Below, piece after piece: positions 5,722 through 64,000 of a stretch of 64,000 bases of DNA. Numbering within the stretch: the stretch's first letter is position 1; every line of letters starts with the position of its first letter. Position numbers and translations under genes: made by a program. The stretch comes from Unio delphinus (lineage: Eukaryota > Mollusca > Bivalvia > Unionida > Unionidae). A model generated the notes under the pieces. That model was not told where the DNA came from. It saw nothing but the letters and a program-made list of their open reading frames with translations, and made no database searches. Location: the NCBI GenBank assembly GCA_029339505.1, contig JAQISU010000118.1:5259501-5323500 (forward strand), in the 5' to 3' direction.

Positions 5722-6570
5722 TGTTAAAGCACTGGAAGGACGGCTACAATGCCATCACATGTGCAAGTGAAATTGAAGTAAATTTTTATTTTTATTTACT
5801 AAAATAGATTTTTAAAAATCTCTATATTAAAAATTCAGTGCACTTCTTACTGTATAACTGTCCGACATTAAGCACAGGTTTTGTTTCTAGCTAATAAATG
5901 GTATATAAACTATGTCCTTTAAGATGAAATCAAGATATAGGTTGGCTTTTTGTAAAGATGGATGAGTACAACATTTTTTAAAATATTTTATTTTCTAATA
6001 TCTTAGTAAAAAATAAATAAAATGCATAGTGTATGTCATTAGTTAATAGTTAATTAATACTGGAACTGACGTTTAAAAAAAGGTCTTCAAAACAATGTCA
6101 CCATCATATCCAGTTTCCTCAATATCAAGTTTATGGCTCAAACATCTAGTTATAGAAAAGTCCAGAGGAATGGTAAACAAATTATCCGCTACAAATATTT
6201 ATCAACATTCCGTAATGACCTGTATTCTTTATAACATAATTCGTTGACTGATTAAGTATACAATATTTTTAATATCGATAAGCGTTAATGCATGAAAAGT
6301 TTTAAATCATGCCTATATTTTGCTTGATAAAAATAATTAATATTCATGAACCCCTCTACCACAGCTGCATTAATTTAATTACATGTATAAATACCTGAAG
6401 ACTTTTCTAACAATTTTTGTTTCTTCTAAAATCATTAGTATGGAGATTGCAATTAATAATCTATTTCATTTATCTTTCTATATTACCAGTCAAACTTATA
6501 GTTAAAGATGAATGAAGGTTACTATTGACTTTCTAACAAAAATAATTATTAGACCAAACAAAAAACAGTT

Positions 6571-28117: not shown

Positions 28118-28336
<219 letters not shown>

Positions 28337-50245: not shown

Positions 50246-51147
50246 GTGAGATGTATACCATTAATTAACATTTTATTTGAATTGTTTATACTAGAAGAGA
50301 TCTTTGATATACATATTTGATACCGTTTACAGCTTAAAAAGTATTTTTGGAATTTTTTTTTTAACCAGAAAAGTCAAGTTTTTTAGTCCTGTTTTCTTAG
50401 CAATTAAGATATATTGATTTTTTTCCATTTTTACAAAAGTTGCAAATTTTTTCATATGTGGTGTGCTACTTTATTTCACACAGCAGCTGTCAAATCAAAC
50501 ATACGTTTCTGGAAAATAAACTCATACCTATGACTGTTAATTAAAATGGTGTTGTTAGCTCCCCTGTCCTAAGATGAATAGAGCTTGTGTGATGGTCCAT
50601 CACCTATTATCTGATTTAGGACCATTGCATAAGCTGAAGCAGTTGTTTGTTATATCTACTCTTTCTTAGCAACTTGGATGAAATGCATGACACTTGGCAC
50701 TTACTTTCATCCTGAGGTTTTTTGGCCTTAAATGAAAATGTCCCTTGGTCATCCAATTTAGCAGACACTACATCTATATCAGACATCGTGTCATGACCAC
50801 ATCTCCTGAATGTATGCTTGTATCCACATAAAAACTCAGAAGTTGGTGTGGCGTACCTCAAGTTTGAGGCTGAATGGCTCAAAGCAACATTGATTTTTTT
50901 TTCTTTATTGCTGAAATAGATACTCTGTATAAATGTTGATTACATTCAGGCAGTCGAGCCTAACCCTTTAATAAATAATAACCAAAACAATATGATTTGA
51001 TCCTGCAAATGGCGCCCTTTCCTCTCATTTATGCATGTACAAACCTTTCTGGAAGGTGAGAATACAGCCAGACATGGTTGGGTGGAAAATTACTGATTCT
51101 TTTAAACTTGGTTGTGCCAATATGTAAATGAAAGGGTTTGAGTCTGA
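50246..51147. other. Start of intron 5, no gene seen
   Basis: AT-rich intronic sequence between the fifth kinase exon and the 49-bp minisatellite. Short open frames here (for example 50616-50882 on the minus strand) show no family resemblance. Confidence 0.5.
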
Positions 51148-52793
51148 TTGTTGGGGCAGCTACTATACTGTGTCTTGGGAAAGGGTTTGATTCTGGTTAT
51201 TGGGTCAGCTACTATACTGTGTCTTGGGAAAGTAGGGCATAACCGATTAGCATTTTTCTACCGATTTCCGATTCCGGATTTTGGGCATGAAATTCTTCCG
51301 ATTCCGGATACAATTCAATTAATCGGAAATGCTAAATCCGTATTTTTTTTTCTAAAAAATTTCATCTTCCGTTTCAGGGTTTTTGGTATCTGCTTTTACT
51401 GTGTCTAGCATGTTACTTAGTACTTTACCATATCCGGCTTCATTTCCGGTTTTCACCCGTCGGTTCAAATAGATTGTCTCACAGCGTGGTTGTGTTGACC
51501 ATATTGGACATTTCTGACTTCTTATTTAACTTTATTAACGCACTATCGAATGACACGCAGTGTTAGACACAGTGCTATAGAAATTCAACTTTATTATTTT
51601 TATTAACCGAATGGGTCGTTCCTGCCTTGTCCGACTCCGATTAATCGGAAGTTCATACTATCCAGTGGAATACGATTTCCGGATCAAAAGTCGGTTATGC
51701 CCTATGGGAAAGGGTTTGATTCTGATTATTGGGTCAGCTACTATACTGTGTCTTGGGAAAGGGTTTGATTCTGATTATTGGGTCAGCTACTATACTGTGT
51801 CTTGGGAAAGGGTTTGATTCTGATTGTTGGGTCAGCTACTACACTGTGTCTTGGGAAAGGGTTTGATTCTGATTATTAAATCAGCTACTATACTGTGTCT
51901 TGGGAAAGGGTTTGATTCTAATTATTGGGTTAGCTACTATACTGTGTCTTGGGAAAGGGTTTGATTCTGATTATTGGGTCAGCTACTATACTGTGTCATG
52001 GGAAAGGGTTTGATTCTGATTATTGGGTCAGCAACTATACTGTGTCTTGGGAAAGGGTTTGATTCTAATTATTGGGTTAGCTACTATACTGTGTCTTGGG
52101 AAAGGGTTTGATTCTGATTGTTGGGTCAGCTACTATACTGTGTCTTGGGAAAGGGTTTGATTCTGATTATTGGGTCAGCAACTATACTGTGTCTTGGGAA
52201 AGGGTTTGATTCTAATTATTGGGTTAGCTACTATACTGTGTCTTGGGAAAGGGTTTGATTCTGATTATTGGGTCAGCTACTATAATGTGTCTAGGGAAAG
52301 TGTTTTATTCTAATTATTGGGTCAGCTGCTTTACTGTGTCTTGGGAAAGGGTTTGATTCTGATTATTGGGTCAGCTACTATACTGTGTCTTGGGGAAAGG
52401 TTTGAATCTGATTGTTGGGTCAGCTACTATACTGTGTCTTGGGAAAGGTTTGATTCTGATTGTTGGGTCAGCTACTATACTGTGTCTTGGGAAAGGGTTT
52501 GAATCTGATTGTTGGGTCAGCTACTATACTGTGTCTTGGGAAAGGGTTTGATTCTGATTATTGGGTCAGCTACTATACTGTGTCTTGGGAAAGGGTTTGA
52601 ATCTGATTGTTGGGTCAGCTACTATAATGTGTCTTGGGAAAGGGTTTGATTCTGATTGTTGGGTCAGCTACTATACTGTGTCTTGGGAAAGGGTTTGATT
52701 CTGATTGTTGGGTCAGCTACTATACTGTGTCTTGGGAAAGGGTTTGAATCTGATTTTTAAATCAGCTACTATACTGTGTCTTGGGAAAGGGTT
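51134..52793. repeat. 49-bp minisatellite interrupted by a hAT MITE and cut by the viral element
   Basis: About 23 units containing GGGAAAGGGTTTGATTCTGA and GTCAGCTACTATACTGTGTC. One unit is split by the hAT-type element at 51233-51704. The last unit stops after GGGAAAGGGTT at 52793, where the viral element begins. Confidence 0.95.
51233..51704. mobile_element. hAT-type MITE (472 bp) with perfect 8-bp target duplication
   Basis: Perfect 14-bp terminal inverted repeats TAGGGCATAACCGA / TCGGTTATGCCCTA, flanked by TGGGAAAG at 51225-51232 and again at 51705-51712. The 8-bp duplication and TAGGG ends are those of hAT transposons. The interior has repeated CCGATTCCGGAT boxes and no transposase. 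The clean duplication implies a recent insertion. Confidence 0.9.
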
Positions 52794-52943
52794 AGCAGCA
52801 GAGAGGGTGAACCTCACAACTTTCCGAGCGTCGATTCGGAAATCTGAGGCTTCTGCCAAATAGTAAAAAAAATGGCGTCTATTCGATAAAATAAGATTTC
52901 CTTATATACATCAACGTCGTTGTCATCCACCCTCTCTGCTGCT
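52794..52943. repeat. 16-bp perfect inverted repeat at the element's left end
   Basis: AGCAGCAGAGAGGGTG at 52794-52809 is repeated in inverse orientation at 52928-52943 (CACCCTCTCTGCTGCT). The first copy is the very end of the element. The pair could fold into a stem with a 118-base loop. Confidence 0.85.
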
Positions 52944-53032
52944 GCAAATGTTTCATTTGTGGTTAATAATTCTTTTACGATTTCAACCAAATATTTGATC
53001 GAGTCCGATACGATATCGTGTCCGAGGATCAT
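52814..53032 (-). CDS. Small unknown ORF overlapping the ATPase 3' end (72 aa)
   Basis: Starts with ATG inside the last 50 bases of the ATPase gene in another frame and runs to 20 bases from the element's end. The protein is acidic in its middle (ERVDDNDVD) and has no family I recognise. Conserved overlap in related elements would be needed to call it real. It may be a chance frame, or a C-terminal extension reached by a frameshift. Confidence 0.4.
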   Translation of the reverse strand: MILGHDIVSDSIKYLVEIVKELLTTNETFAAAERVDDNDVDVYKEILFYRIDAIFFTIWQKPQISESTLGKL

Positions 53033-53654
53033 GTAAATTTATTGTTACAAATCCATGCGGGGTTGACTGAGCATGACTAAAGAAATTTTTAAATTGATTG
53101 AAGTCCATATCGGAACACCATGTCTGCCAAATATTTCGTAGCGTATGTGTATCAACGCCGTTAAACACAGCAAGAATATTACAGTTATCTCTGATCACTT
53201 TTGGAATCTGAGTGTAGCGTTGAGTGACATATATCACATCAGTGTTTTTGTGACGCCCCCGGGAAAATATTCTAGCTGGGTTTTTTTGATTGTCTAACAT
53301 CACATCGTCGTATACGACTAAATTGTTAATGCTCCCATCAAGGTCATCCACGGATGGCGCCTCGTCAATATCAGTTATAAAATCAATGGTATTCTCACCT
53401 TTAATTTCTAATGCATTCTCGTTAAAATCCTTTAACACTTCATAGCATCGTTGATCATCTACGCTAGGGGCAATTAAATACAACTTATCCCACTTCATCC
53501 ATCTCATTATTAAATTGAGCAACAATTGCGTTTTACCGGATCCAGATGGCCCGATTATAATTGCACGGATAGAGTTTGGTAGCGCTGCATGATGCTTAAC
53601 TGGTTCTCTTATTTTAGTCGCTGAAAAATCAATTATATTCATATCTCTATACAT
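52983..53654 (-). CDS. Genome-packaging ATPase (A32/FtsK-like), 223 aa
   Basis: This would be the motor that pumps viral DNA into the capsid. Walker A GPSGSGKT is at residues 35-42, followed by helix QLLLNLIM. Walker B is VVYDD at 113-117. The segment ARIFSRGRHKNTDVIYVTQR, then Tyr-Thr-x-Ile-Pro-Lys-x-Ile-Arg-Asp-Asn-x-Asn, is the arginine/sensor region shared by packaging ATPases of Polintons, adintoviruses, virophages and large DNA viruses. Length is usual for the group (about 220-260). Translation may begin at M1 or M5 (53642). The gene is divergent from the zinc-ribbon gene, with only five bases between the two ATGs, so each promoter must lie in the other's coding sequence. Confidence 0.88.
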   Translation of the reverse strand: MYRDMNIIDFSATKIREPVKHHAALPNSIRAIIIGPSGSGKTQLLLNLIMRWMKWDKLYLIAPSVDDQRCYEVLKDFNENALEIKGENTIDFITDIDEAPSVDDLDGSINNLVVYDDVMLDNQKNPARIFSRGRHKNTDVIYVTQRYTQIPKVIRDNCNILAVFNGVDTHTLRNIWQTWCSDMDFNQFKNFFSHAQSTPHGFVTINLHDPRTRYRIGLDQIFG

Positions 53655-53659
53655 AAATT

Positions 53660-53866
53660 ATGGATCTATATTGTGTGAAGTGTAAAACGCGTACTAGCAC
53701 AAATGATGTGACGACGGTTACAACTAAAAATAACAGATCAGCACTAACTGGTAGATGTGCAACATGTGGTATAAAAAAGTTTAGATTTATTTCTACAAAA
53801 TCAAAGATTTTACAATCCGGAGATGTTTTAAAAAAAAACGAGGAGGTGATATCGCAGCCAAATTGA
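53660..53866 (+). CDS. Zinc-ribbon protein (DUF5679-like), 68 aa
   Basis: Begins MDLYCVKCKTRT with a Cys-x-x-Cys knuckle (C5, C8), then a Thr-Lys-Asn-x-Arg segment, then the second knuckle CATCGIKKFRF. This pattern (YCVKC...TKNGR...G-x-C-x-x-CG-x-KK) matches the small DUF5679-type zinc ribbons found in Polintons and giant viruses; the function is unknown, perhaps nucleic-acid binding. The last 15 or so codons are Lys/Glu-rich and lie beyond a T4A9 run, where the reading frame may be altered; see the PLA2 entry. Confidence 0.7.
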   Translation: MDLYCVKCKTRTSTNDVTTVTTKNNRSALTGRCATCGIKKFRFISTKSKILQSGDVLKKNEEVISQPN

Positions 53867-54198
53867 CAAAGCTCCCTGGAACCCCATGGGCAAAGTACCC
53901 CGGAGAAAAGCACCTTCCAGGATATAGCTACTGTGGTCCCGGAACACGATTAGATATCAGACTTGATGATCAAAATCAACCCCGACCCGGTGAAGAACCA
54001 ATAAACGCCATTGATAAGGCCTGTCACCTTCATGATGTTGCTTATAAAAGCAGCAACCTGCAACACAGGCATCTCGCGGATGTGAAATTAATTCATGCGT
54101 TAAATGCTATTCCTGATAAATCTTTTAAAGAAAAGTTGGCTTCGTGGTTGGTAAAATCAGCTATGAAAGGCAAATTGATGATGGGTGCTGGTAATTAA
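53785..54198 (+). CDS. Parvovirus-type phospholipase A2, start displaced (frame from 53785)
   Basis: Has the calcium loop YCGPGTRLD and, after a short insert, DKACHLHDVAYK with the catalytic His-Asp pair, as in the PLA2 domain of parvovirus VP1 and of Polinton/adintovirus proteins. There it cuts phospholipids so that an entering particle can leave the endosome. The frame is open from 53785 (after a TAG at 53782) to TAA at 54198, but has no ATG before the domain. An ATG at 53823 lies one base out of frame, next to a run of four T and nine A. Removing one base there would both end the zinc-ribbon gene and give PLA2 its own start, which points to a 1-base insertion or assembly error. Alternatively, A AAA AAC at 53833-53839 is a canonical -1 slippery heptamer in the zinc-ribbon frame and leads into this frame. 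The part after 53863 is certain. Confidence 0.8.
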   Translation: MYFYKIKDFTIRRCFKKKRGGDIAAKLTKLPGTPWAKYPGEKHLPGYSYCGPGTRLDIRLDDQNQPRPGEEPINAIDKACHLHDVAYKSSNLQHRHLADVKLIHALNAIPDKSFKEKLASWLVKSAMKGKLMMGAGN

Positions 54199-54202
54199 TA
54201 AT

Positions 54203-55165
54203 ATGGAATCAATTTATTATTCCCCAAGAGGATACTGGAGGGGTAAATCAGCAGTCCATAAACTCGCTAGCGCTGCAAAAGTGAAAAAAACTACAGCGGC
54301 GGATTGGTTATCCAAACAGGCACTATGGCAAATTTATCTACCACCACCTAAACAAATTCAATTCTCGCATTTTGATGTGACCGCTCCTAATGAAGTTCAT
54401 CAGGCTGATATATTATTTCTGCCACATGATCGTGGTTACAAATACGCGTTAACCGTAGTTGATATTGCAAGTCGATACAAAGAAGCAGAACCGTTAAAAA
54501 CAAAATCAGCCACTGAAGTTGCTTCTGCATTTGAAAGGATTTATCGACGAGGTCCTCTGCACTGGCCGAATCTATTGCAGGTTGATCCTGGCAAGGAATT
54601 TCAGGGTGCGGTTCTATCTACAATGAAAAATCATAATGTCACCATACGACGAGGGCATACTGCGCTACATCGCGATCAGGCCATTGTCGAACGATTTAAT
54701 CGGACGATTGCTGAGCGGTTATTTGGATATCAATACGCAAAAGAATTCATTCAAGAAAAGCGATCCAGTGAATGGGTTAAAAGATTACCATCTGTGATTA
54801 CTGCACTGAATAACGAGATTACTAGAACAATCAACATGAAACCTATCAACGCGATTAAAAAGAAGTCAATACCCGTACAACCACAAAAAGATTTCCCTAG
54901 AAACGCTAGCGTTTCCCAACCAATTCTTGGTAGTAGTGTCATTGTGAGGTACTTATACGAACCAGGAGAGCTTGAAGGGGGTAGAAAAAGGGCTACTGAT
55001 CCTATTTGGAGCGTCACTACGCATAAGATATCTAGTATAACACGATCAACTGGTAGACCAGCAATCTATAAACTGGATTCAACTGCTCCTCAGCGAGGAT
55101 TTACTCGACAACAACTGCAAGTGATTCCCGAGGATACTCAATTGCCACCGCATGGTCTTAACTAG
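54203..55165 (+). CDS. Retroviral-type (rve) DDE integrase, 320 aa
   Basis: This enzyme would insert the element into host DNA. The RNase H-fold core shows VHQADILFLP (D69), LLQVDPGKEFQG (D128) and RDQAIVERFNRTIAERL (E163). The second and third acidic residues are 35 apart, giving D,D(35)E as in retroviruses and Polintons. No N-terminal HHCC zinc finger and no chromodomain is evident; the C-terminal 120 residues are basic, with an SH3-like VIVRYLYEPG segment. The ATG at 54203 is used because the frame upstream begins only with GTG. It lies 4 bases after the PLA2 stop and its end overlaps the convergent polymerase gene by 8 bases. Confidence 0.92.
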   Translation: MESIYYSPRGYWRGKSAVHKLASAAKVKKTTAADWLSKQALWQIYLPPPKQIQFSHFDVTAPNEVHQADILFLPHDRGYKYALTVVDIASRYKEAEPLKTKSATEVASAFERIYRRGPLHWPNLLQVDPGKEFQGAVLSTMKNHNVTIRRGHTALHRDQAIVERFNRTIAERLFGYQYAKEFIQEKRSSEWVKRLPSVITALNNEITRTINMKPINAIKKKSIPVQPQKDFPRNASVSQPILGSSVIVRYLYEPGELEGGRKRATDPIWSVTTHKISSITRSTGRPAIYKLDSTAPQRGFTRQQLQVIPEDTQLPPHGLN

Positions 55166-58100
55166 CACCCTGGGTGCTGGCACCCCGGCGTCTATTGCAC
55201 TCAAGACAAGTCAACATCACATTATTTCTGACATGACCGAGATTGTTATTTTTTCTGTCTACGGTGAATTGGCGAGGATCCTTATCCGAATACTGCCAAC
55301 GTATTATACAATTGCAACTCGCGCAGTGATTATTCTGTTGTTTCTTCAAAGTGATTATTAATTTAGCATCAATATCAAATTCTCGTTGTTTTTTTTTGTC
55401 CTGTTGTTTGTAACCGGAGAGTTTTTTATTAATGATGCTAACATCAATATCACTTATTGTTGTGTCATTATCATCACCAATGATTTCATCATCGCCACTG
55501 GCTTCGCCAACAACAATTCTTCGAAGCTGATTTATTCTTCGTACTCTGGATACTGCGAGATAGACTAAATTCGACCATTCGATGCGATTATCTACCATCC
55601 AAACAATTGTATCCGATATAGTCAATCCCTGTGAAGAGTGTATTGTTGCTGCGTATCCTAGCGTCCATGGGGATTTATTAGCACGCAATGCATCTTCAAC
55701 GACATTGATATCAACCAGCACAATATCATTTAACACGAGAATCTGCTTTTCACTTCCTGACTTTGTCAGGCTTGGAATATCAACTTCTATATTCTGCTTT
55801 CGTGTATCCGAAGGCCTATAACACAACGGTACTGGAAGCGTTGCAAATTTTTCTTTATGCAATTCAAATAACTTCATCTGAAGTGTGTCTCTGACTATTT
55901 TTCTACTTGCTACTATCAAATCATTTGGTCTCCACGTTTCCCAGAAATCATTCATAGGAGTTTCTGAAATTATTTCACGCGCTATTTCGCATTGGATTTT
56001 ATCTGGTTGTAATCTAAGCAGTGCTTTGAACTCGCGTAATTGTTCATCAAGTGATCTATGGTCGGTATTAATTTCTTCATAATAGTCTACAGAACCCTTT
56101 AGCCATTCATGTGGAGATCCACCGACAAATGGTGGTGGTTGGCCGTGATCACCGCACATGACGACTTTTGTGTTTTTGTTTAACAACCACTCAAGAAATG
56201 TTTTTAATACATCTAATGACACTGTGCATATTTCATCCCAAATTATGACTTCAGGAATGAATTTATCACCCATACGCTCAGGAGTCCATTTGTCACCTTT
56301 CCATCGAAAAAAACTATGATAAGTACAGGCATTTACCCCTCGCTGTATCATCTCTCTGGCGAGTCTGTGAGTCGGTGTTAACACAATCATGTTAGTAGAA
56401 ATACAAGTATTTCCACCACCACGATATAATTCAATTGCACGAGTTGTCTTTCCTGACCCACCACAACCGTTTAAATAAACTGTCTTGTATCTACATATTG
56501 GATCAGATACCGGTGGTGCATTAGAAAATTCTGATTGAATCTCATCACATTTTAAGTACTTTTCATCCATGGCAACGTCTGCGGATTCACAATACTCATG
56601 TAGCATCTCCTTTTTAAATCGCCAACCCCCCCACGCTTCCTCCGGATCTGTGAATGCCGCTACAGCTGATTTGTACTTATTGTGTATATACATCGAATCA
56701 GTGGCTACTCTAACCGCGGTATTAGGAAATCTATTTATCATCGAAAATAGATTAATGCAAGCATAGGCTAGCATTGAACTTCTCAAATGTGTGTACTGGG
56801 AATTATATCCATCACAGTAGGTAACAACCGTACCCAATTTCTCACCATTGGATAGAAAAGCATCCTTACGGGATACAAGTTTTCCCTGTTTCGTTAAATC
56901 CGTTACAAGAAAATCGTATTCAGCGACATCTATGATCAACCGCGAGGAAAATTTTGCATTGTCGTATCTTCCACCCTGGGTAAATTTACCGATTATTTTT
57001 CGTCCAAAATCCTTTGCTTGTTCTTTTTTACTTTCAAATAACTTCTTAGACCAATTTATGATTTCTTCTTCATTGAAATCTGGACACTGTTTTCGTAGTT
57101 CGCTGATTATACGATCTAGATCGGGTTGTGGTAGCCAAACTTCTTTCTGAGCTCGATAGCATATAATAGCTTCGGAAACAATCAACGATATCAGCATGCC
57201 ACAATCAATCATATATCGTAGTAACACTATTGGCATCCAGGCCTTTTCAGATAGGTGTCTACCGAGCCAAACATAACTACACGGATGTAACCCTGTAGCG
57301 AGTTCAAATGATATCACACGAGCGAATCCGGTTAAATCAAAATCAGGTAATGGTCCATTAATCGCAACACGAGTCATTTCATGCGTGGGGTGTCCAAATC
57401 GTTTAAAATAGTTACTACATTCTCCATACCCGAGAAAACTTCCAGGATAACACGCGGATATATCAATTGAAATCATACCGTCACGATGGTATTTTGTATT
57501 CCACAGTCCTCCATGACCAAATTCGATGCAACTCAATTTAACGTCCTCGAGAAAATCACTTCGTGTTGGACGCCAGGAGTTTTTTTCTCTTGCGAAGTGA
57601 GCTACCACTGAAGAAATAGTAAAACTATCCGTGAGTAGTTTTTCATGGAAACTCTCTGGTGAAAAATCATTAGCGATTTTTCTCATTCTGTTATCTAATT
57701 CTTCAACGCGATATAATTCACCATTTGGTCTTACAAATTGATCAAATCCTGATTCGGAACCAGCACTACTAAGTAACCACACTGACACAGGATCATCTTT
57801 ACACAACGCATGAATAGCATCAAATAATTTCTCTTCATAGAAAACATCCCCGGAAAATTCCGGGGGGATATATCTCACGGTTCTATCTCGTGGAAATATT
57901 GTTACTGCAGGTGTCCACGCGTGTTCGTTATGATCAATAATTTGTATTGGCGCTCCTTGTAATTTATATTTCGGTTCGTGTAATACTTCTCCGGTTATCG
58001 TCATAACGGTTATTGGGAATCTTAATGATGTTTCTAATTTAGCTATATCAGAAATCTTTGCACCGTGCTGTTTCACTGTCAGTTCCCATTCTGTTATTTT

Positions 58101-59015
58101 CCTACGTCGCAGATCAGTTAGTTTATTTCCTCGGGATGCATTTGTGAAGTGTTCCATTACCCGTGTTGCTACACAATTGAGCCTTGACGAAGTCAATGGT
58201 GAATATTTCATAGGAGCTAGTTTTGCAATATCGGGTTTATCATTTAACGGATATATCCCATAAACGATTGCTGTTACGGGATAAGATCTCTCGTAGTATG
58301 GTTTGTCAATTCCAGTTAGAATTCCTGGTTTGGAATCTCTACTTACAATGACAGTTTTTTTATCCTTGAGGATTGGTTCAAATTTATCCTTAATAATCCA
58401 TTTGCCTTCGACTTCGATAATGAATTTTATTCTGAAAAAATACTTCTGATTGGAATTGCTTTGTTGGGAATTGCTTTGCTTGAAATCCTTTGGATTTCCA
58501 CCTTTGGATTTCCATCTTTGAATTTCCCCTTTGGATGGAAATTGCTTTGCTTGAAATCCTTTGGATTTCTCGCCAAGGTGTGAAATTATCTCAGCTGCTC
58601 TTTTATCGTTCATAGTAGCATCGATGATGGGTACATTGACATCTTCATCAATAATTCGAAATGTCGACCAACAGTATGCTGCACCGTCTCGGTAGAATTC
58701 ATTAAAACACTCCCTGATTTTACCGAGTATAGTTCTATCACCGATTAGACGTTTTGGTGTATCAGAGACTCTATCGAGATTGAATTTAGTATTTCTCCAA
58801 GGTTTGATTTTCGATAATCTTTGGAACTCCCTATCAAGATTGAATTTAGTATTTTTCCAAGGTTTGATTTTCGATAATCTTTGGAACTCCCTATCAAGAT
58901 TGAATTTAGTATTTTTCCAAGGTTTGATTTTCGATAATCTCTTGAACTCCCTATCAAGATTGAATTTAGTATTTTTCCAAGGTTTGATTTTCGATAATCT
59001 CTTGAACTCCTCCAT
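55158..59015 (-). CDS. Family B DNA polymerase - SF1 helicase - HNH fusion, 1285 aa
   Basis: Replication protein of the element. In order: four 20-residue repeats (residues 3-82, EF-K/Q-RLSKIKPW...); a Lys/Gln/Ser-rich low-complexity stretch (about 150-185); a divergent B-family polymerase with motif A DISACYPG (D518), the GKF of motif B (676-678) and motif C ATDSM (D773); then a superfamily 1 helicase with Walker A GCGGSGKT (850-857), Walker B IIWDE (D927), motif III GDHGQPPP (955-962), HSSQGLT (near 1126) and VSRVRR (near 1153); finally a Cys4/HNH domain with CASC (1231-1234), DRKNNNLGHVRNN and CLEC. Polinton polymerases are usually about 1000-1200 residues without this helicase and HNH tail. 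An upstream GTG-started extension is ignored; the ATG is at 59015. The Cys-rich gene diverges from it 42 bases away. All key residues are present, so it may be active. Confidence 0.88.
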   Translation of the reverse strand: MEEFKRLSKIKPWKNTKFNLDREFKRLSKIKPWKNTKFNLDREFQRLSKIKPWKNTKFNLDREFQRLSKIKPWRNTKFNLDRVSDTPKRLIGDRTILGKIRECFNEFYRDGAAYCWSTFRIIDEDVNVPIIDATMNDKRAAEIISHLGEKSKGFQAKQFPSKGEIQRWKSKGGNPKDFKQSNSQQSNSNQKYFFRIKFIIEVEGKWIIKDKFEPILKDKKTVIVSRDSKPGILTGIDKPYYERSYPVTAIVYGIYPLNDKPDIAKLAPMKYSPLTSSRLNCVATRVMEHFTNASRGNKLTDLRRRKITEWELTVKQHGAKISDIAKLETSLRFPITVMTITGEVLHEPKYKLQGAPIQIIDHNEHAWTPAVTIFPRDRTVRYIPPEFSGDVFYEEKLFDAIHALCKDDPVSVWLLSSAGSESGFDQFVRPNGELYRVEELDNRMRKIANDFSPESFHEKLLTDSFTISSVVAHFAREKNSWRPTRSDFLEDVKLSCIEFGHGGLWNTKYHRDGMISIDISACYPGSFLGYGECSNYFKRFGHPTHEMTRVAINGPLPDFDLTGFARVISFELATGLHPCSYVWLGRHLSEKAWMPIVLLRYMIDCGMLISLIVSEAIICYRAQKEVWLPQPDLDRIISELRKQCPDFNEEEIINWSKKLFESKKEQAKDFGRKIIGKFTQGGRYDNAKFSSRLIIDVAEYDFLVTDLTKQGKLVSRKDAFLSNGEKLGTVVTYCDGYNSQYTHLRSSMLAYACINLFSMINRFPNTAVRVATDSMYIHNKYKSAVAAFTDPEEAWGGWRFKKEMLHEYCESADVAMDEKYLKCDEIQSEFSNAPPVSDPICRYKTVYLNGCGGSGKTTRAIELYRGGGNTCISTNMIVLTPTHRLAREMIQRGVNACTYHSFFRWKGDKWTPERMGDKFIPEVIIWDEICTVSLDVLKTFLEWLLNKNTKVVMCGDHGQPPPFVGGSPHEWLKGSVDYYEEINTDHRSLDEQLREFKALLRLQPDKIQCEIAREIISETPMNDFWETWRPNDLIVASRKIVRDTLQMKLFELHKEKFATLPVPLCYRPSDTRKQNIEVDIPSLTKSGSEKQILVLNDIVLVDINVVEDALRANKSPWTLGYAATIHSSQGLTISDTIVWMVDNRIEWSNLVYLAVSRVRRINQLRRIVVGEASGDDEIIGDDNDTTISDIDVSIINKKLSGYKQQDKKKQREFDIDAKLIITLKKQQNNHCASCNCIIRWQYSDKDPRQFTVDRKNNNLGHVRNNVMLTCLECNRRRGASTQGAS
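58770..59009 (-). repeat. Four in-frame 60-bp repeats in the polymerase N-terminus
   Basis: Four consecutive 60-bp copies encode EFKRLSKIKPWKNTKFNLDR with only K/Q and K/R changes. They keep the frame, and the copies differ at few positions, so the expansion is recent. Confidence 0.95.
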
Positions 59016-59057
59016 GTTATAATTAAAACAAGTATTTAAATAGAAAAATATAGTATA
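59016..59057. promoter_or_regulatory. Candidate bidirectional promoter between polymerase and Cys-rich gene
   Basis: Only 42 bases separate the two ATGs. The interval is almost pure A/T and holds TATTTAAATAG and TATAGTATA, TATA-like in either direction. This is inferred from position and composition only. Confidence 0.4.
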
Positions 59058-59384
59058 ATGAATCACTGCAAGTGGCTAATGATTGGATCTACAACCCCGT
59101 GTAACAAATCATGCAGAAGCGAATTCTGTGGGTATCATATGCAAAGCGTGAGAAACGGTTCAAAAGGCCCTCTCCCATGCCTCCAATGTGGGGTGGGTGT
59201 TAGAGGAAAATCGAAATTATGCCTTGCTTGTGGGGGTAAACGATACAGGGAACTAAAACGCTACTATGACAAACGAATCATTGACTCCGTCATCCTTGAT
59301 AAAATCAAGGACAAAGTAATAAAAACCCCTCAAGATTATATCCAGAGATTTATAATTAAAGCAGATAATAAATTAGACAAGTAG
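59058..59384 (+). CDS. Cys-rich zinc-binding small protein, 108 aa, unknown
   Basis: The N-terminal half has many Cys and His residues (C4, PCNKSC, FCGYH), then PCLQCGVG and LCLACGG, two knuckles that look like a zinc ribbon. The C-terminal half is basic and helical (RELKRYYDKR, DKIKDKVIK). I do not recognise the family. It is the first of two co-directed genes, 13 bases before the NUMOD4/HNH gene, and it diverges from the polymerase, so a role in replication or transcription is possible but only inferred. Confidence 0.65.
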   Translation: MNHCKWLMIGSTTPCNKSCRSEFCGYHMQSVRNGSKGPLPCLQCGVGVRGKSKLCLACGGKRYRELKRYYDKRIIDSVILDKIKDKVIKTPQDYIQRFIIKADNKLDK

Positions 59385-59397
59385 TATTATTATACAA

Positions 59398-59898
59398 ATG
59401 AGCCAAGATTTCAGACCTCACCCAGTGCTTGCTAATTACGAAGCCTCTAGTGATGGTGTTGTCAGACACCGCAGACTCAAAGAACCTGTTGGGTATCTGA
59501 ATAATATGGGATATTTGATGTTTTCAGCTGGGAGGAAGAAGGATCTCTGTCACAGAGCCATCTATGAAGCATTTTACGGATTAATCGAAGACGGTCTTGT
59601 GATTGATCACATAAATGGCGTGAAGACTGATAATTGTCTTGGGAATCTTCAAGCCGTCTCGCAGCGCGATAACCTTTTAAAAAGCAACGCTGGTAAGCAC
59701 GCAAAACATCCCAAGGGTGTGAAATCGTTTGATTTAGAAAATAATGAAGAGAGAAGCTTTCAGTCGATAAATGCGGCTGGAAAATATTTCGATATTTGTA
59801 GTACTTCAATTCGATTTGTTGCTGAAAAAATCATTAAAACATCTCTGTCTAAAAAAAATGGTCATAAAATAAAGTTCGTATACACTGAAACTATTTAA
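59398..59898 (+). CDS. NUMOD4/HNH endonuclease with C-terminal NUMOD1-like motif, 166 aa
   Basis: Residues 4-35 (FRPHPVLANYEASSDGVVRH) fit the NUMOD4 motif. The HNH core is CHRAIYEAFYG, then VIDHINGVKTDNCLGNLQAV (Asp-His and the following Asn residues). The end, VKSFDLENNEERSFQSINAA plus a helix-turn-helix-like stretch (KYFDICSTSIRFVAE), fits the NUMOD1/IENR1 DNA-binding repeat. Such proteins are free-standing homing-type endonucleases common in phages and large DNA viruses. It is complete, starts with ATG and is co-directed with the Cys-rich gene. It may be a passenger of the element rather than part of its life cycle. Confidence 0.85.
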   Translation: MSQDFRPHPVLANYEASSDGVVRHRRLKEPVGYLNNMGYLMFSAGRKKDLCHRAIYEAFYGLIEDGLVIDHINGVKTDNCLGNLQAVSQRDNLLKSNAGKHAKHPKGVKSFDLENNEERSFQSINAAGKYFDICSTSIRFVAEKIIKTSLSKKNGHKIKFVYTETI

Positions 59899-60394
59899 GG
59901 GAGATAAATCCTTTATGGATAAATCCGCACTACAATTCACACTCTACCTACTAAGTTCCCTTGTATTATGACGTCAAAGGAATTTGTCGCCTGCTATATT
60001 ACCTGTACTTGACTAGGCGCGCCCACGTGACTGTAATGGAGATATAATGCATGAGTTTTCGATAGAGAATAAAACTTTTTATTGTCACTTGTGGGCTAAA
60101 ACTGCATTATTAGTTTTATTTATCTACATATCTCATGTGTGGGGTGGGTGGACTAGCAGTAAAGCAGACAGCTAACTCGTTCTTTTCAGTACAAAAATTC
60201 TTTATAATCTAACGCATTACCTATGTTCGCTCAGCCGGAACGCGAGTGTTTCCTATTCATTGAAGTATGTGGGCGTGGTTAAAATTCCTTGTATGTGAAT
60301 GTATTTTATCTAGAGAATTATAACAGAGTATAAAAACGCTGTTTTATTAAACAACTGTATTATTTTGTTTAAAATATTTCTCATTGTTGCAGCA

Positions 60395-60658
60395 TAAAAT
60401 TGTCTATTTTAAAAATCTCTTATTGTTAAGTATACATGTCTTCCCTCTCCTCTATATTGATCGGTATTCATGTGACCTTCAGTACACACTTCTGTTTCCC
60501 ACCCTGTATGATCGGTATTTCACTGACGCAGGCATGCGTGATTGATATTTACAAACAGTTAAATTAATTTTTTTTTTGTGTACTTAGTATTTTATATTCC
60601 TAAATACGATGGATACAGTAAAATTGTCTATTTTAAAAATCTCTTATTGTTAAGTATA
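60395..60658. repeat. Perfect 40-bp direct repeat (60395-60434 and 60619-60658)
   Basis: The two copies are identical over 40 bases (starting TAAAATTGTCTATTTTAAAA, ending TTATTGTTAAGTATA) and lie 224 bases apart. Confidence 0.93.
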
Positions 60659-60706
60659 TCAGATATATATATATATATATTAAAAAATCTCTATTCTGTA
60701 TGACTA

Positions 60707-60780
60707 GTCCGTGGTGTAATGGTATCGTGTTTGTCTTGTAAACATAGATCTATCAACTACGTGTTCGGTCCCCATAGCAG
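60707..60780 (+). tRNA. tRNA-like sequence (Thr-TGT-like anticodon loop), degenerate
   Basis: 74 bases with an A-box TGGTGTAATGGTA, a B-box-like TGTTCGGTCCC at the right spacing and an anticodon-loop-like CTTGTAA with a partly paired stem. The acceptor and T stems do not pair, so it is a decayed tRNA, a tRNA-derived SINE head, or chance. Confidence 0.3.
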
Positions 60781-60852
60781 ATACATTATTTGATGGCGAA
60801 ACGGAAGATGTTTTTTTCTATTAATTGGGGGGAGAGGGGCGGTCCCCCTCAG

Positions 60853-60962
60853 CCAAACCAACATGGCAACCCATGCTATCGCATTCTCGGTAGCGTGGGT
60901 TGGTGTTTTTTCTAACTCATGCAACCATGAATTCGATTTCATGGGTTGCCATGTTGGTTTGG
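60853..60962. repeat. 23-bp perfect inverted repeat with an alternative inner hairpin
   Basis: Arms at 60853-60875 and 60940-60962 are perfect reverse complements over 23 bases (core CCAACATGGCAACCCATG), separated by 64 bases. Part of the left arm plus CTATCG can instead pair with CGGTAGCGTGGGTTG at 60888-60902, so two folds compete. Confidence 0.92.
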
Positions 60963-61269
60963 TTTACCACGCCCACATCATACCATCATCGTTCCATTGA
61001 ATTATAATCCATCCTTAATTAAGTTAATTAATGTTATGCCTAAAATTTGCCACAACACTCGAGTGGAAATATATGGCATTGTGCCGTCCATGTTGTGACG
61101 TCCCCCCCAAGCATATCTTCTGGGCGGTCTAAGATGGCATTTGCCACGTTAGGCCTCCCTTCCGGAGATGTATGTTTTGGGTCCCCCTTGGGCTTACTTG
61201 GATGCGAAGGCACCCAAGGAGTTCCAAAGATGTGTTGTCATATTTTTTTTTTATTAATTAGAGATACAG

Positions 61270-61298
61270 TATACTATATTTATATAAAAATATAAATA
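61270..61298 (+). promoter_or_regulatory. TATA-like sequence before the 118-aa gene
   Basis: TATACTATATTTATATAAAA and further A/T run right up to the ATG at 61299. Position and composition suggest a core promoter, though it is very close to the start codon. Confidence 0.35.
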
Positions 61299-61655
61299 AT
61301 GGATATCAATGATGTAAATGCTATAATTGCTGAAATCTCAAATTTAAATAATAAAGGAGTATTATTATCTGAAAGTCTTGACGTTGACAAGATTACCTCG
61401 GAATATGAAGATATTGAATATCTGTCTAGTAAGGGTCGTTATGTTTTACCTAGGATGTACAGGCTCGTGAAAGGAATTCAAAAATCCATTAATGGTTGTT
61501 TGTACGGTAACGACATTAATTTATTTATAACGCTATTTAGCACCGTTGAAGCAATACGTCAAAAGCTTGGCCAAGAATATCAAAAACGAGCTGAAATTGG
61601 TTCTAAAGTTCGTGATCTTAGAAAAATGTTAAACGAGGAGCGACCCGTATCTTAA
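61299..61655 (+). CDS. Unknown helical protein, 118 aa
   Basis: ATG start, complete, with virus-like codon use. The sequence is mostly helical with heptad-like spacing near the end (AIRQKLGQEYQKRAEIGSKV), so a coiled coil is possible. I recognise no family. It converges on the 92-aa gene, with an A/T-rich gap (61656-61747) that contains AATAAA-like signals on both strands. Confidence 0.65.
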   Translation: MDINDVNAIIAEISNLNNKGVLLSESLDVDKITSEYEDIEYLSSKGRYVLPRMYRLVKGIQKSINGCLYGNDINLFITLFSTVEAIRQKLGQEYQKRAEIGSKVRDLRKMLNEERPVS

Positions 61656-61747
61656 CCACGTGAGTGTTACTAAAAAATAATATAGGCTTTCGTAAATAAT
61701 TTAAATAATTTATTTATTTTTTTTTTTAGCGTTTTTTGTAACACTTG

Positions 61748-62026
61748 TTACATAGGATTTTCTCCTGAAAGGATACTCATCAGTCTGGACTTGCTCATGC
61801 AGTTATGTGCATAATGGATGATCTGGTCGTAGTAGCAAGTAATCACCGCGACGCCTCCATTTTCACGTAATTGTTCTTGTTGCCGCGTCGTTAACACAAA
61901 TCGTTCATCGCCATTCTCAGATATTACAATTCTGAAATCCCCAGCGATGTTATTTCTGAAACACTCGCGGATAGCGTCGTACAGTTTAACCCTGTCGAAG
62001 ATGAATACGTTAGCTTGATGGTACAT
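61748..62026 (-). CDS. Unknown 92-aa protein resembling the polymerase N-terminal region
   Basis: ATG start at 62026. The N-terminal part, DRVKLYDAIRECF followed by FRIVISENGD, resembles residues 93-130 of the polymerase fusion (DRTILGKIRECF, then FRIIDED), so the two may share a small domain. The rest (ETTRQQEQL-like, then VAVITCYYDQIIHYAH) is unfamiliar. It diverges from the 330-aa gene across a spacer that holds two tandem copies of TTATTTAATAACTAAG. Confidence 0.6.
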   Translation of the reverse strand: MYHQANVFIFDRVKLYDAIRECFRNNIAGDFRIVISENGDERFVLTTRQQEQLRENGGVAVITCYYDQIIHYAHNCMSKSRLMSILSGENPM

Positions 62027-62119
62027 TATTTAATAACTAAGTTATTTAATAACTAAGCTTTTAATTATGATGGAAACCCTCCGGATTTCACATTTGAAAA
62101 TTTAGTTCACAATCAATAT
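62027..62119. promoter_or_regulatory. Divergent spacer with a tandem 16-bp repeat
   Basis: Two adjacent copies of TTATTTAATAACTAAG (about 62026-62057) lie between divergent start codons. They could be a bidirectional promoter element; no direct evidence. Confidence 0.35.
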
Positions 62120-63112
62120 ATGGTTGGTGAATCGCTTACAACTAAATTAGCCCGAGAGCGGCTAGCAGCAATTAAAAAGTTTATACCGGTTCGAGACAGA
62201 CTTCGCGAGAAACTTCAACAACGACAACAAGCGCAGACTGACTTTTCTGTGTCAAGTGAACAACTGTTTACTCCGATAACAAGTGCGACCAAAGATGTGA
62301 AAACAGCAACTGAACGAGCAATATACGGAGATATTCCTAAGGAAGGCAAGCGACGAGAAGTGCCTGTTCTTGGTGTGCTTGAAAAGATAGCAGCAGAGAC
62401 CGGACAAACACGCGCAGGGATACAACAGTTATCCAGTGATATAAAAACTCAGCGCGACTATGAACAACTAGCTGATATTGATGATGAAACTCAAAGAGTT
62501 TCCACTCCTGAACCACAACCTGTTGATGTCGTCACCCCAAGAGGTGTTTCCTTTATAGACAAACTCACCGAAGGAGCTATAGCAGAAATCAAACGACCTG
62601 AATTAATAAAATCCGAACATTATAAGATTTTTGGAAATTTTGCCGCCCAAAGCTTTCATTCCAGAAAAGACTTTTTAAAAGACGAGTATAAAAACAGTAG
62701 AGTAAGCCGAGATGAATGGGCTGATTGGTTGTATAAAACGAATAAGGGGGTTGGCCGTTTAAATAAAAGAGAATTGGGATATAAAGAATTTAGAAGGGGA
62801 ATTGAAGAGTATGATGAAACTGGTACAACTGAGAAAACAAGCGGAAAAGGATATTCGATTAAAAATCCAAAGGATGTCTTTGACTCTACCGTGACATGCC
62901 CTGGTAACATTCTCAGTGATATATCACGGTTAGAGGTTCTCATCGGAGGGAAACGAGCCGGAAATAACTCCGTCGAGATAATTAACGAGGCCGCTGATAT
63001 CTGTAGACGATTATTTGCTGGTGGTATCATGGACATTAATGTATATCGAGAACTTATTGCTGAATTAGTTGAAAATCACAACGATGAAAATCTTATGGAT
63101 GTAAGCGATTGA
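62120..63112 (+). CDS. Probable virion protein with helical N-terminus, 330 aa
   Basis: The N-terminal 70 residues are charged and probably coiled coil (REKLQQRQQAQ). A Pro-rich linker (STPEPQPVDVVTPRGVS) leads to a middle domain (HYKIFGNFAAQSFHSRKDFL) and to the C-terminal ISRLEVLIGGKRAGNNSVEI then NEAADICRRLFAGGIMD. This tail pattern (Gly-Asn-x-Ser...Asn-Glu...Leu, then Ile...Tyr) is one I associate with conserved proteins of Polinton-like elements, but I cannot name the family. Its place just before the pVI-like and capsid genes suggests a structural or assembly role. Confidence 0.65.
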   Translation: MVGESLTTKLARERLAAIKKFIPVRDRLREKLQQRQQAQTDFSVSSEQLFTPITSATKDVKTATERAIYGDIPKEGKRREVPVLGVLEKIAAETGQTRAGIQQLSSDIKTQRDYEQLADIDDETQRVSTPEPQPVDVVTPRGVSFIDKLTEGAIAEIKRPELIKSEHYKIFGNFAAQSFHSRKDFLKDEYKNSRVSRDEWADWLYKTNKGVGRLNKRELGYKEFRRGIEEYDETGTTEKTSGKGYSIKNPKDVFDSTVTCPGNILSDISRLEVLIGGKRAGNNSVEIINEAADICRRLFAGGIMDINVYRELIAELVENHNDENLMDVSD

Positions 63113-63146
63113 TCACTAATTGAAAAACTACTAGTTTTATAATAAG

Positions 63147-63635
63147 ATGATTATACACTACAACCATGATAAACCCGTAAGCGTCTACGTGGTAAACTCA
63201 CGATTGCCTGTTTATCGCGCGTGGTACGGAGATGGTTTCGGCAATACCATTGCGGGGTTATTTACAAGAATGGCTCCCAAGGTGGCGCCGTTAGCTAAAC
63301 AATTATCAATGAAAGCCATTGATGCTATCCGTGATAAGGGAATCAATTTCGTTGGAAATCTTGCAGGAAAGGCATTTTCTGCCGCGAAAGATAAAATAGC
63401 ATCATTGGTGCGAAAGAAACCACGAATGACTTCGTCATCGATGACTTCGTCATTAGTGCTGCCATCAACTACAGTGATGCCTGCAAAAATCAGCAAAGCA
63501 ATAAATAACGCAGTGGAAGAAAAACTAGCGCAATTGACTTCGTCACCACCGGTAACAGATAGCGCTATCATGAACGCGATAGCAGGAAGTGGTTTGAAAC
63601 AAAAAAGAAATTCGAGGAATTTTCAACGACGATGA
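63147..63635 (+). CDS. Small basic virion protein (adenovirus pVI/pX-like), 162 aa
   Basis: After a short lead the sequence reads YGDGFGNTIAGLFTRMAPKV, an amphipathic Gly-rich helix like the ones at the start of pVI/pX-type minor capsid proteins in adintoviruses and Polintons. Alanine- and lysine-rich helices follow (AGKAFSAAKDKIASL), and the end is very basic (KQKRNSRNFQRR). Such proteins can sit under the capsid, bind DNA or disturb membranes. Assignment is by composition, motif and place directly before the capsid gene. Confidence 0.65.
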   Translation: MIIHYNHDKPVSVYVVNSRLPVYRAWYGDGFGNTIAGLFTRMAPKVAPLAKQLSMKAIDAIRDKGINFVGNLAGKAFSAAKDKIASLVRKKPRMTSSSMTSSLVLPSTTVMPAKISKAINNAVEEKLAQLTSSPPVTDSAIMNAIAGSGLKQKRNSRNFQRR

Positions 63636-63653
63636 TTACAAAGATGAAAATGC

Positions 63654-63694
63654 TAGCGTTAAACTCTTCGAGTTTCACAATTGAAAACGCTAGT
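63654..63694 (+). promoter_or_regulatory. Bulged hairpin just upstream of the capsid gene
   Basis: Inner stem AAACTC/GAGTTT with a TTC loop (63662-63676), outer stem CTAGCGTT/AACGCTAG (63654-63661 with 63687-63694). The structure ends 10 bases before the capsid ATG. It could act in the DNA or in the mRNA leader. Confidence 0.45.
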
Positions 63695-63704
63695 AATGTT
63701 ATAA

Positions 63705-64000
63705 ATGTTTAAACGAACAGCTGATCCCGCGTTAGATATGGAAGCCCCAATGCGCAAGGATGATTCCGTCCGCGATTATCAATACTATTCCTATCATGCA
63801 ATACAACCCGACCTACGATCGCGAATTGAACTTCAAGTTCAAGATACCAGTAAATACTTTTTACCATGTGAAGCATTTATTGAAGTAGAAGGAAAACTTG
63901 TAACAAATGATGCAGCTGATACCCCATATGCAAATGATTCAAATATCCAAGTTGGTTTCGTCAACAACGGTATAATGGCGTTATTTGAAAGTGCAAGATA
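63705..64000 (+). CDS. Major capsid protein (double jelly-roll), N-terminal 98 residues, cut by window
   Basis: The ATG at 63705 opens a frame that runs off the window. After a short charged start it reads DYQYYSYHAIQPDLRSRIEL, QDTSKYFLPCEAFIEVEGKL, then a TPYAND segment and GFVNNGIMALFESARY. The pattern (Tyr-His-x-x-x-Pro, then a beta strand with Pro-x-Glu-Ala, Glu-Gly-Lys-Leu, then Asn-Asn-x-x-Met-x-Leu-Phe) agrees with the N-terminal jelly roll of capsid proteins in Polinton/adintovirus-type elements found in invertebrate genomes. Full proteins of this kind are usually several hundred residues. It follows the pVI-like gene, as expected for a late virion cluster. Confidence 0.75.
   Translation, partial: MFKRTADPALDMEAPMRKDDSVRDYQYYSYHAIQPDLRSRIELQVQDTSKYFLPCEAFIEVEGKLVTNDAADTPYANDSNIQVGFVNNGIMALFESAR

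Follow-up and report, generated by a model that had tools for sequence, protein, structure and literature searches.

The 64,000-nucleotide stretch of Unio delphinus DNA analysed here (contig JAQISU010000118.1, positions 5,259,501 to 5,323,500 of the forward strand; hereafter the window) contains, from position 52794 onward, most of a 17.1-kb element. At a probability of roughly 60% we regard this copy as an integrating Polinton-like virus (PLV), which encodes an integrase, a capsid and a polymerase-helicase of its own and likely multiplied in the mussel via a virus cycle. The element family is complete, has recently multiplied and has a Tlr1-type replicase in an animal; a working cycle is what we infer for it.

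The element spans 52794 to position 6028 of the sequence continuing to the right of the window (L009; L009:6028 corresponds to window coordinate 69928), and only part of it lies inside the window. An earlier note on this DNA had described a near-intact integrated DNA virus with its genes in 11 kb. A complete virus-like element was indeed found, and it runs past 64000. The extension to the right that was proposed there revealed the continuation of the capsid gene to 65129, a protease and the right terminus at 69928, while for the penton gene there is a candidate only. The predicted ATPase, phospholipase A2 (PLA2), integrase, helicase, HNH, polymerase and capsid genes lie where they had been placed and were recovered beyond chance by Pfam, PHROGs and fold comparisons. 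For the pVI-like gene no family search confirmed the label. The ends and principal genes are:

52789..52793, no strand: left copy of the 5-bp target-site duplication, read from the flanks
52794..52963, + strand: left terminal inverted repeat of ~170 bp, from comparison of both ends
52983..53654, - strand: FtsK/A32-type packaging ATPase (PF04665, 1.8e-11)
53863..54198, + strand: parvovirus-type PLA2, from a putative start codon (PF08398, 3e-12)
54185..55165, + strand: retroviral-type DDE integrase, first ATG at 54203 (PF00665, 1.5e-8)
55158..59066, - strand: replicase, 1302-aa frame read from GTG, with its first ATG at 59015 (families, motifs, fold)
59398..59898, + strand: free HNH homing-type endonuclease, HNH_3 (PF13392, 3.2e-13; NUMOD1 under cut-off)
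63147..63635, + strand: 162-aa basic protein, pVI-like candidate (homology not confirmed by family searches)
63705..64000 and on to window coordinate 65129, + strand: double-jelly-roll (DJR) capsid (PF21738, 1e-19)
L009:1752-2306: Ulp1/adenain-like protease (match to the African swine fever virus S273R protease, 3.8e-6; PF00770 0.012, under cut-off)
L009:4432-5781: penton candidate, constrained
L009:6029-6033, no strand: right copy of the 5-bp duplication, the first 5 bases beyond the right end, read from the flanks

The integrase has the catalytic residues D75, D134 and E169, with 34 residues between the last two, and also matches the NCBIfam IS481 model (3.4e-15, under that model's curated cut-off). 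Motifs which we take to be Walker A and Walker B are present in the packaging ATPase, and the PLA2 contains what are presumably the calcium loop and HD pair. The identity of the capsid is also backed by the fold of its closest homolog among the matches listed, a 96% identical protein on a 2298-bp contig from a JGI source. To the right of the capsid gene, past 64000, follow a basic protein, the protease, a 505-aa protein, a membrane-type protein and the penton candidate. Sequence searches of solved structures with the capsid, integrase, ATPase and penton candidate gave nothing informative. The terminal inverted repeats of the window copy agree at 165 of the first 168 positions, and their likeness falls beyond ~170. 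The outer 16 bases of each repeat are present again, inverted, ~135 bp inward (left: 52928-52943); each end thus resembles a small element, or could fold back.

The replicase is composed of N-terminal 20-aa repeats, a vOTU-like domain (C298 and H379, by motif and position only), a protein-primed PolB palm, a superfamily 1 (SF1) helicase and a C-terminal HNH domain. The palm motifs lie near residues 535, 693 and 788, and the closest solved fold of the palm is phi29 polymerase. The helicase has its Walker A motif near residue 867 (PF13245, 1.2e-11), and the HNH domain covers residues 1245-1292 (PHROGs match, 1.1e-9). The region before the palm aligns loosely with phi29 from residue 54 on, with no exonuclease family match in the Pfam search. 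The 20-aa repeats of the N-terminus are four in number and derive from a tandem array with a 60-bp unit (58771-59010); unbroken frames among the copies described below have 1293-1325 codons. Read from GTG, the frame overlaps its neighbours by 8-9 bp (55158-55165, 59058-59066); the overlap at 59058-59066 disappears if the replicase begins at its first ATG. Eighteen homologs with 35-70% identity were found, 16 of them metagenome proteins, and the domain order, helicase fusion included, is common to the homologs (alignment of 19, several partial). The two with an organism name are both annotated in a fungal genome, that of Diversispora epigaea, and the replicase family thus extends beyond animals and protists.

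This architecture is that of the Tlr1-like helicases (pPolB-S1H) known from protist PLVs and transpovirons (PMC11071308, PMC3671162). The shared features are the vOTU domain, a protein-primed palm in which the first Asp of motif C is missing, and the SF1 helicase, in this order, and in some PLVs the C-terminal HNH domain (PMC11071308). Tlr1 also resembles the mussel element in its RVE integrase, ATPase and DJR capsid (PMC11071308, PMC4642659, PMC4028283). Nevertheless, Tlr1 of Tetrahymena is described as having no adenovirus-like protease (PMC4028283), whereas the mussel element has one, and Tlr1-like elements are described from protists and giant-virus parasites, whereas the host here is an animal. 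An endogenous PLV of Oxyrrhis marina likewise has a large helicase-polymerase fusion, but with an N-terminal helicase and the exonuclease kept; no RVE integrase was detected in it, and a protease is either missing or cannot be recognised (PMC12721341). PMC11071296 further describes polymerases of the HelPol type and mixed meldviruses. A new enzyme fusion was considered and rejected, the fusion being already described in PMC11071308. The earlier note had held the PLA2, the HNH domains and the polymerase-helicase fusion to be unusual, but each is in print (PMC4642659, PMC11071308). It is the combination, the host and the burst of copies that look new within the literature searched: titles and abstract openings of open-licence papers, and passages of those cited, showed no report of a Tlr1-type element in an animal or of this element in mussels.

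Much of the gene set would also fit a Maverick/Polinton or adintovirus of the ordinary animal kind whose polymerase has diverged. With these groups the element has in common an RVE integrase, a packaging ATPase, a DJR capsid, an Ulp1/adenain-like protease, terminal inverted repeats and an animal host, and a PLA2, present in the mussel element, is sometimes found in them (PMC4642659, PMC4028283, PMC11071296). One survey annotated Mavericks in every mollusc genome that it covered, those of unionids among them (PMC10294476), so relatives of the element may sit in repeat libraries under that name. However, the polymerase of these groups is described as having an exonuclease and no fused helicase (PMC11071308), in contrast to the mussel replicase with its SF1 helicase and HNH domain in Tlr1-like order. 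Furthermore, the target-site duplication has 5 bp, as opposed to 6 bp in vertebrate Mavericks (PMC8097293). Metazoan Maverick-Polinton capsids form one cluster, with the exception of the cnidarian ones (PMC10120064). No Polinton-named protein occurred among the capsid profile matches, which is a weak argument, nearly all matches being without names. Taken together, we consider an ordinary Maverick improbable. The separate lineage proposed in the earlier note is borne out for the replicase order and the 5-bp duplication.

The search for other copies covered 2,505,324,503 bases in 1246 contigs. The integrase is present at at least 123 loci, all 99-100% identical and two with an internal stop; the number is a lower bound, because scoring was confined to the best 123 among 56,644 first-look candidates. 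This high copy number had been missed at first, and it rules out a lone near-intact provirus. A 150-bp element end gave 814 first-look candidates, of which 40 were scored and contain 14 pairs 16.9-17.9 kb apart. Two samples were drawn, 20 copies chosen by integrase and ten chosen from the 14 pairs by their ends only. A perfect 5-bp duplication flanks 17 of the 20 integrase-chosen copies (one is without, one has N in its left flank and in one the right end was not found) and all ten end-chosen copies, that is 27 of 30 other copies, or 28 of 31 with the window copy. The 30-base left flanks of 30 of the 31 copies (the N flank left out) have at most 50% identity in 435 pairs. Mutually unlike flanks and 5-bp duplications indicate that the copies are separate insertions, and no site preference was seen by eye in the copies read.

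Most insertions are probably young. The left pieces of 21 copies diverge by a mean of 1.7% (range 0.17-4.9%). In 17 of the 20 integrase-chosen copies (excluding one without an end and two differing by 16 and 65) a copy's own two terminal repeats differ by a mean of 0.65 in 165 bases. Between copies the difference is ~10 bases in 120 of 136 pairs, 16 pairs with more than 30 mismatches, probably indels, being excluded (mean 19.8 with them). The much greater likeness within than between copies suggests that every round of copying equalises the two ends, as a linear genome replicated from its termini would lead one to expect. In the end-chosen ten, a sample selected by repeat similarity, nine copies have identical repeats and one has six differences.

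That the sequences are contamination or derive from a symbiont is barely conceivable. The replicase relatives, as mentioned above, are mostly metagenome proteins, as such an origin would predict, but the copies lie at unrelated sites with target duplications on contigs of up to 43.6 Mb, one of them within a host minisatellite, and the annotated genomes of two other unionids contain capsid relatives. Indeed, among the capsid homologs (18 by sequence search; 52 by profile search, in which the 7998 candidates with most shared words were scored) all those named by organism are unionid, with four proteins of Sinanodonta woodiana and two of Potamilus streckersoni over both searches. IMG/VR, searched with the replicase, integrase and capsid, gave no confirmed relative; phage records contained no capsid relative and matched the replicase in its helicase domain only.

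In the end-chosen ten the capsid frame is open in all copies, the penton candidate has full length in all and is stop-free in nine, the integrase is uninterrupted in nine and the replicase is a single frame in five. Together with the window copy, these gave ratios of non-synonymous to synonymous polymorphism (pN/pS) of 0.14 for the integrase, 0.18 for the penton candidate, 0.27 for the capsid and 0.36 for the pVI-like gene, the last from partly incomplete pieces. The integrase-chosen sample, in which 20 integrase codon variants are synonymous and 6 are non-synonymous, was not used for these estimates, because its members are ranked by integrase similarity.

The same 11 copies fall into two capsid types, present in three and eight copies, which are 7-9% apart and differ by at most 1.8% within a type, whereas divergence among these copies does not exceed 1.7% for the integrase or 2.4% for the penton candidate. 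Pairings of integrase and penton candidate do not match capsid type, so the backbones are mixed. A sliding comparison of one pair gave 3-19% divergence over the capsid gene and a portion of the pVI-like one, dropping to 0.7% just downstream and again ~500 bases upstream. Among other pairs the borders of exchange vary, and some copies have mixed patches. Judged from these alignments, the pattern is one of recombination or gene conversion between lineages, and capsid genes appear to have been traded among the copies.

For fish Mavericks, particle formation and reinfection were deduced from purifying selection on virion genes (PMC8097293). By analogy the same reasoning may be applied to the mussel element, with less data than for the fish Mavericks. 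A self-synthesising transposon that jumps in the germline only, with capsid genes that are carried along, retained for some other purpose or still awaiting decay, would equally be expected to have target duplications, terminal repeats and chromosomal residence, and the many end-like sequences counted above agree with it. It fits poorly with a capsid frame open in all ten copies at a pN/pS of 0.27, with recurrent capsid exchange and with capsid relatives in many metagenome contigs, and appears rather unlikely to us.

Several observations weigh against a virus cycle. The case is built on genome sequence. In the end-chosen ten the replicase is broken in five copies, and the integrase and the penton candidate in one each. 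The penton candidate has no family match and no convincing PDB relative. The pN/pS values come from 11 copies, and a burst that started from a small number of source copies could also yield low values. Gene conversion among copies already resident in the genome could account for the capsid exchange, and mussels could have shed the DNA seen as metagenome relatives. Own-repeat differences of 16 and 65 in two of the 20 integrase-chosen copies, of six in one end-chosen copy and of three in the window copy also belong here.

If the element is an integrating virus, its replicase would copy linear DNA from the ends with a protein primer, like phi29 polymerase, as the closest solved fold of the palm suggests, and the two terminal repeats would become alike during end-primed copying. 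The packaging ATPase would load capsids, to be matured by the Ulp1/adenain-like protease. PLA2-like lipases occur in some Polintons and an entry role was proposed for PLV lipases (PMC4642659); accordingly, the PLA2 may open the endosome at entry. The integrase would join the ends to DNA with a 5-bp stagger, and in the copies examined it shows no apparent choice of site. Different genomes meeting in one cell could recombine and swap the capsid gene.

The window copy is embedded in a host 49-bp minisatellite, which extends over 51130-52793 and L009:6029-9000, ~4 kb or more, downstream of exons of a CDKL-type kinase (~413-706, 28118-28336 and ~40443, by motif scans). The earlier note had placed the element in an intron of a CDKL2-like gene; the upstream exons were found and make an intron placement plausible, but no CDKL exon was found on the far side in 3 kb to the right of the element. 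No tRNA genes were found in 52000-64000. The remaining features are:

51705..52793, no strand: left host flank, 49-bp minisatellite, 22 units (Tandem Repeats Finder, TRF)
59058..59384, + strand: 108-aa Cys-rich open reading frame (ORF), by ORF call
60853..60962, no strand: palindrome with 49-nt arms, 84% complementary, inside 59899-61298
61299..61655, + strand: 118-aa ORF, by ORF call
61748..62026, - strand: 92-aa ORF, by ORF call
62120..63112, + strand: 330-aa ORF, by ORF call, virion candidate by position only
L009:6029-9000, no strand: right host flank, same 49-bp minisatellite, 60.8 units, up to the end of the sequence examined (TRF)

The 108-aa ORF is open at full length in ten of ten copies tested, and the first 38-72 residues of the free HNH protein were found in ten of ten, where the copy pieces stop. 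To the 1.4 kb of 59899-61298 in the middle of the element no gene was assigned; besides the palindrome this stretch contains an exact 40-bp direct repeat (60395-60434 and 60619-60658) and is possibly an origin or promoter region.

According to PMC8097293, Maverick particles have not been observed, and the mussel family bears on whether animal Polinton-like elements spread as viruses today. Tentatively, and with the odds somewhat against it, we put forward that a living, animal-infecting and genome-integrating lineage of mussel viruses with a Tlr1-type polymerase-helicase may at present be adding copies to Unio genomes by the hundred, with at least two capsid types and capsid swaps between co-infecting or resident genomes. 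A high-copy, recent and constrained family with swapped capsid alleles here sits in an animal open to sampling, which allows a direct search for virions, for insertions that differ from one individual to the next and for host control. Furthermore, the presence in an animal of a Tlr1-type replicase, accompanied by a protease and an integrase of Polinton type, bears on replicase exchange among Polintons, Polinton-like viruses and transpovirons.

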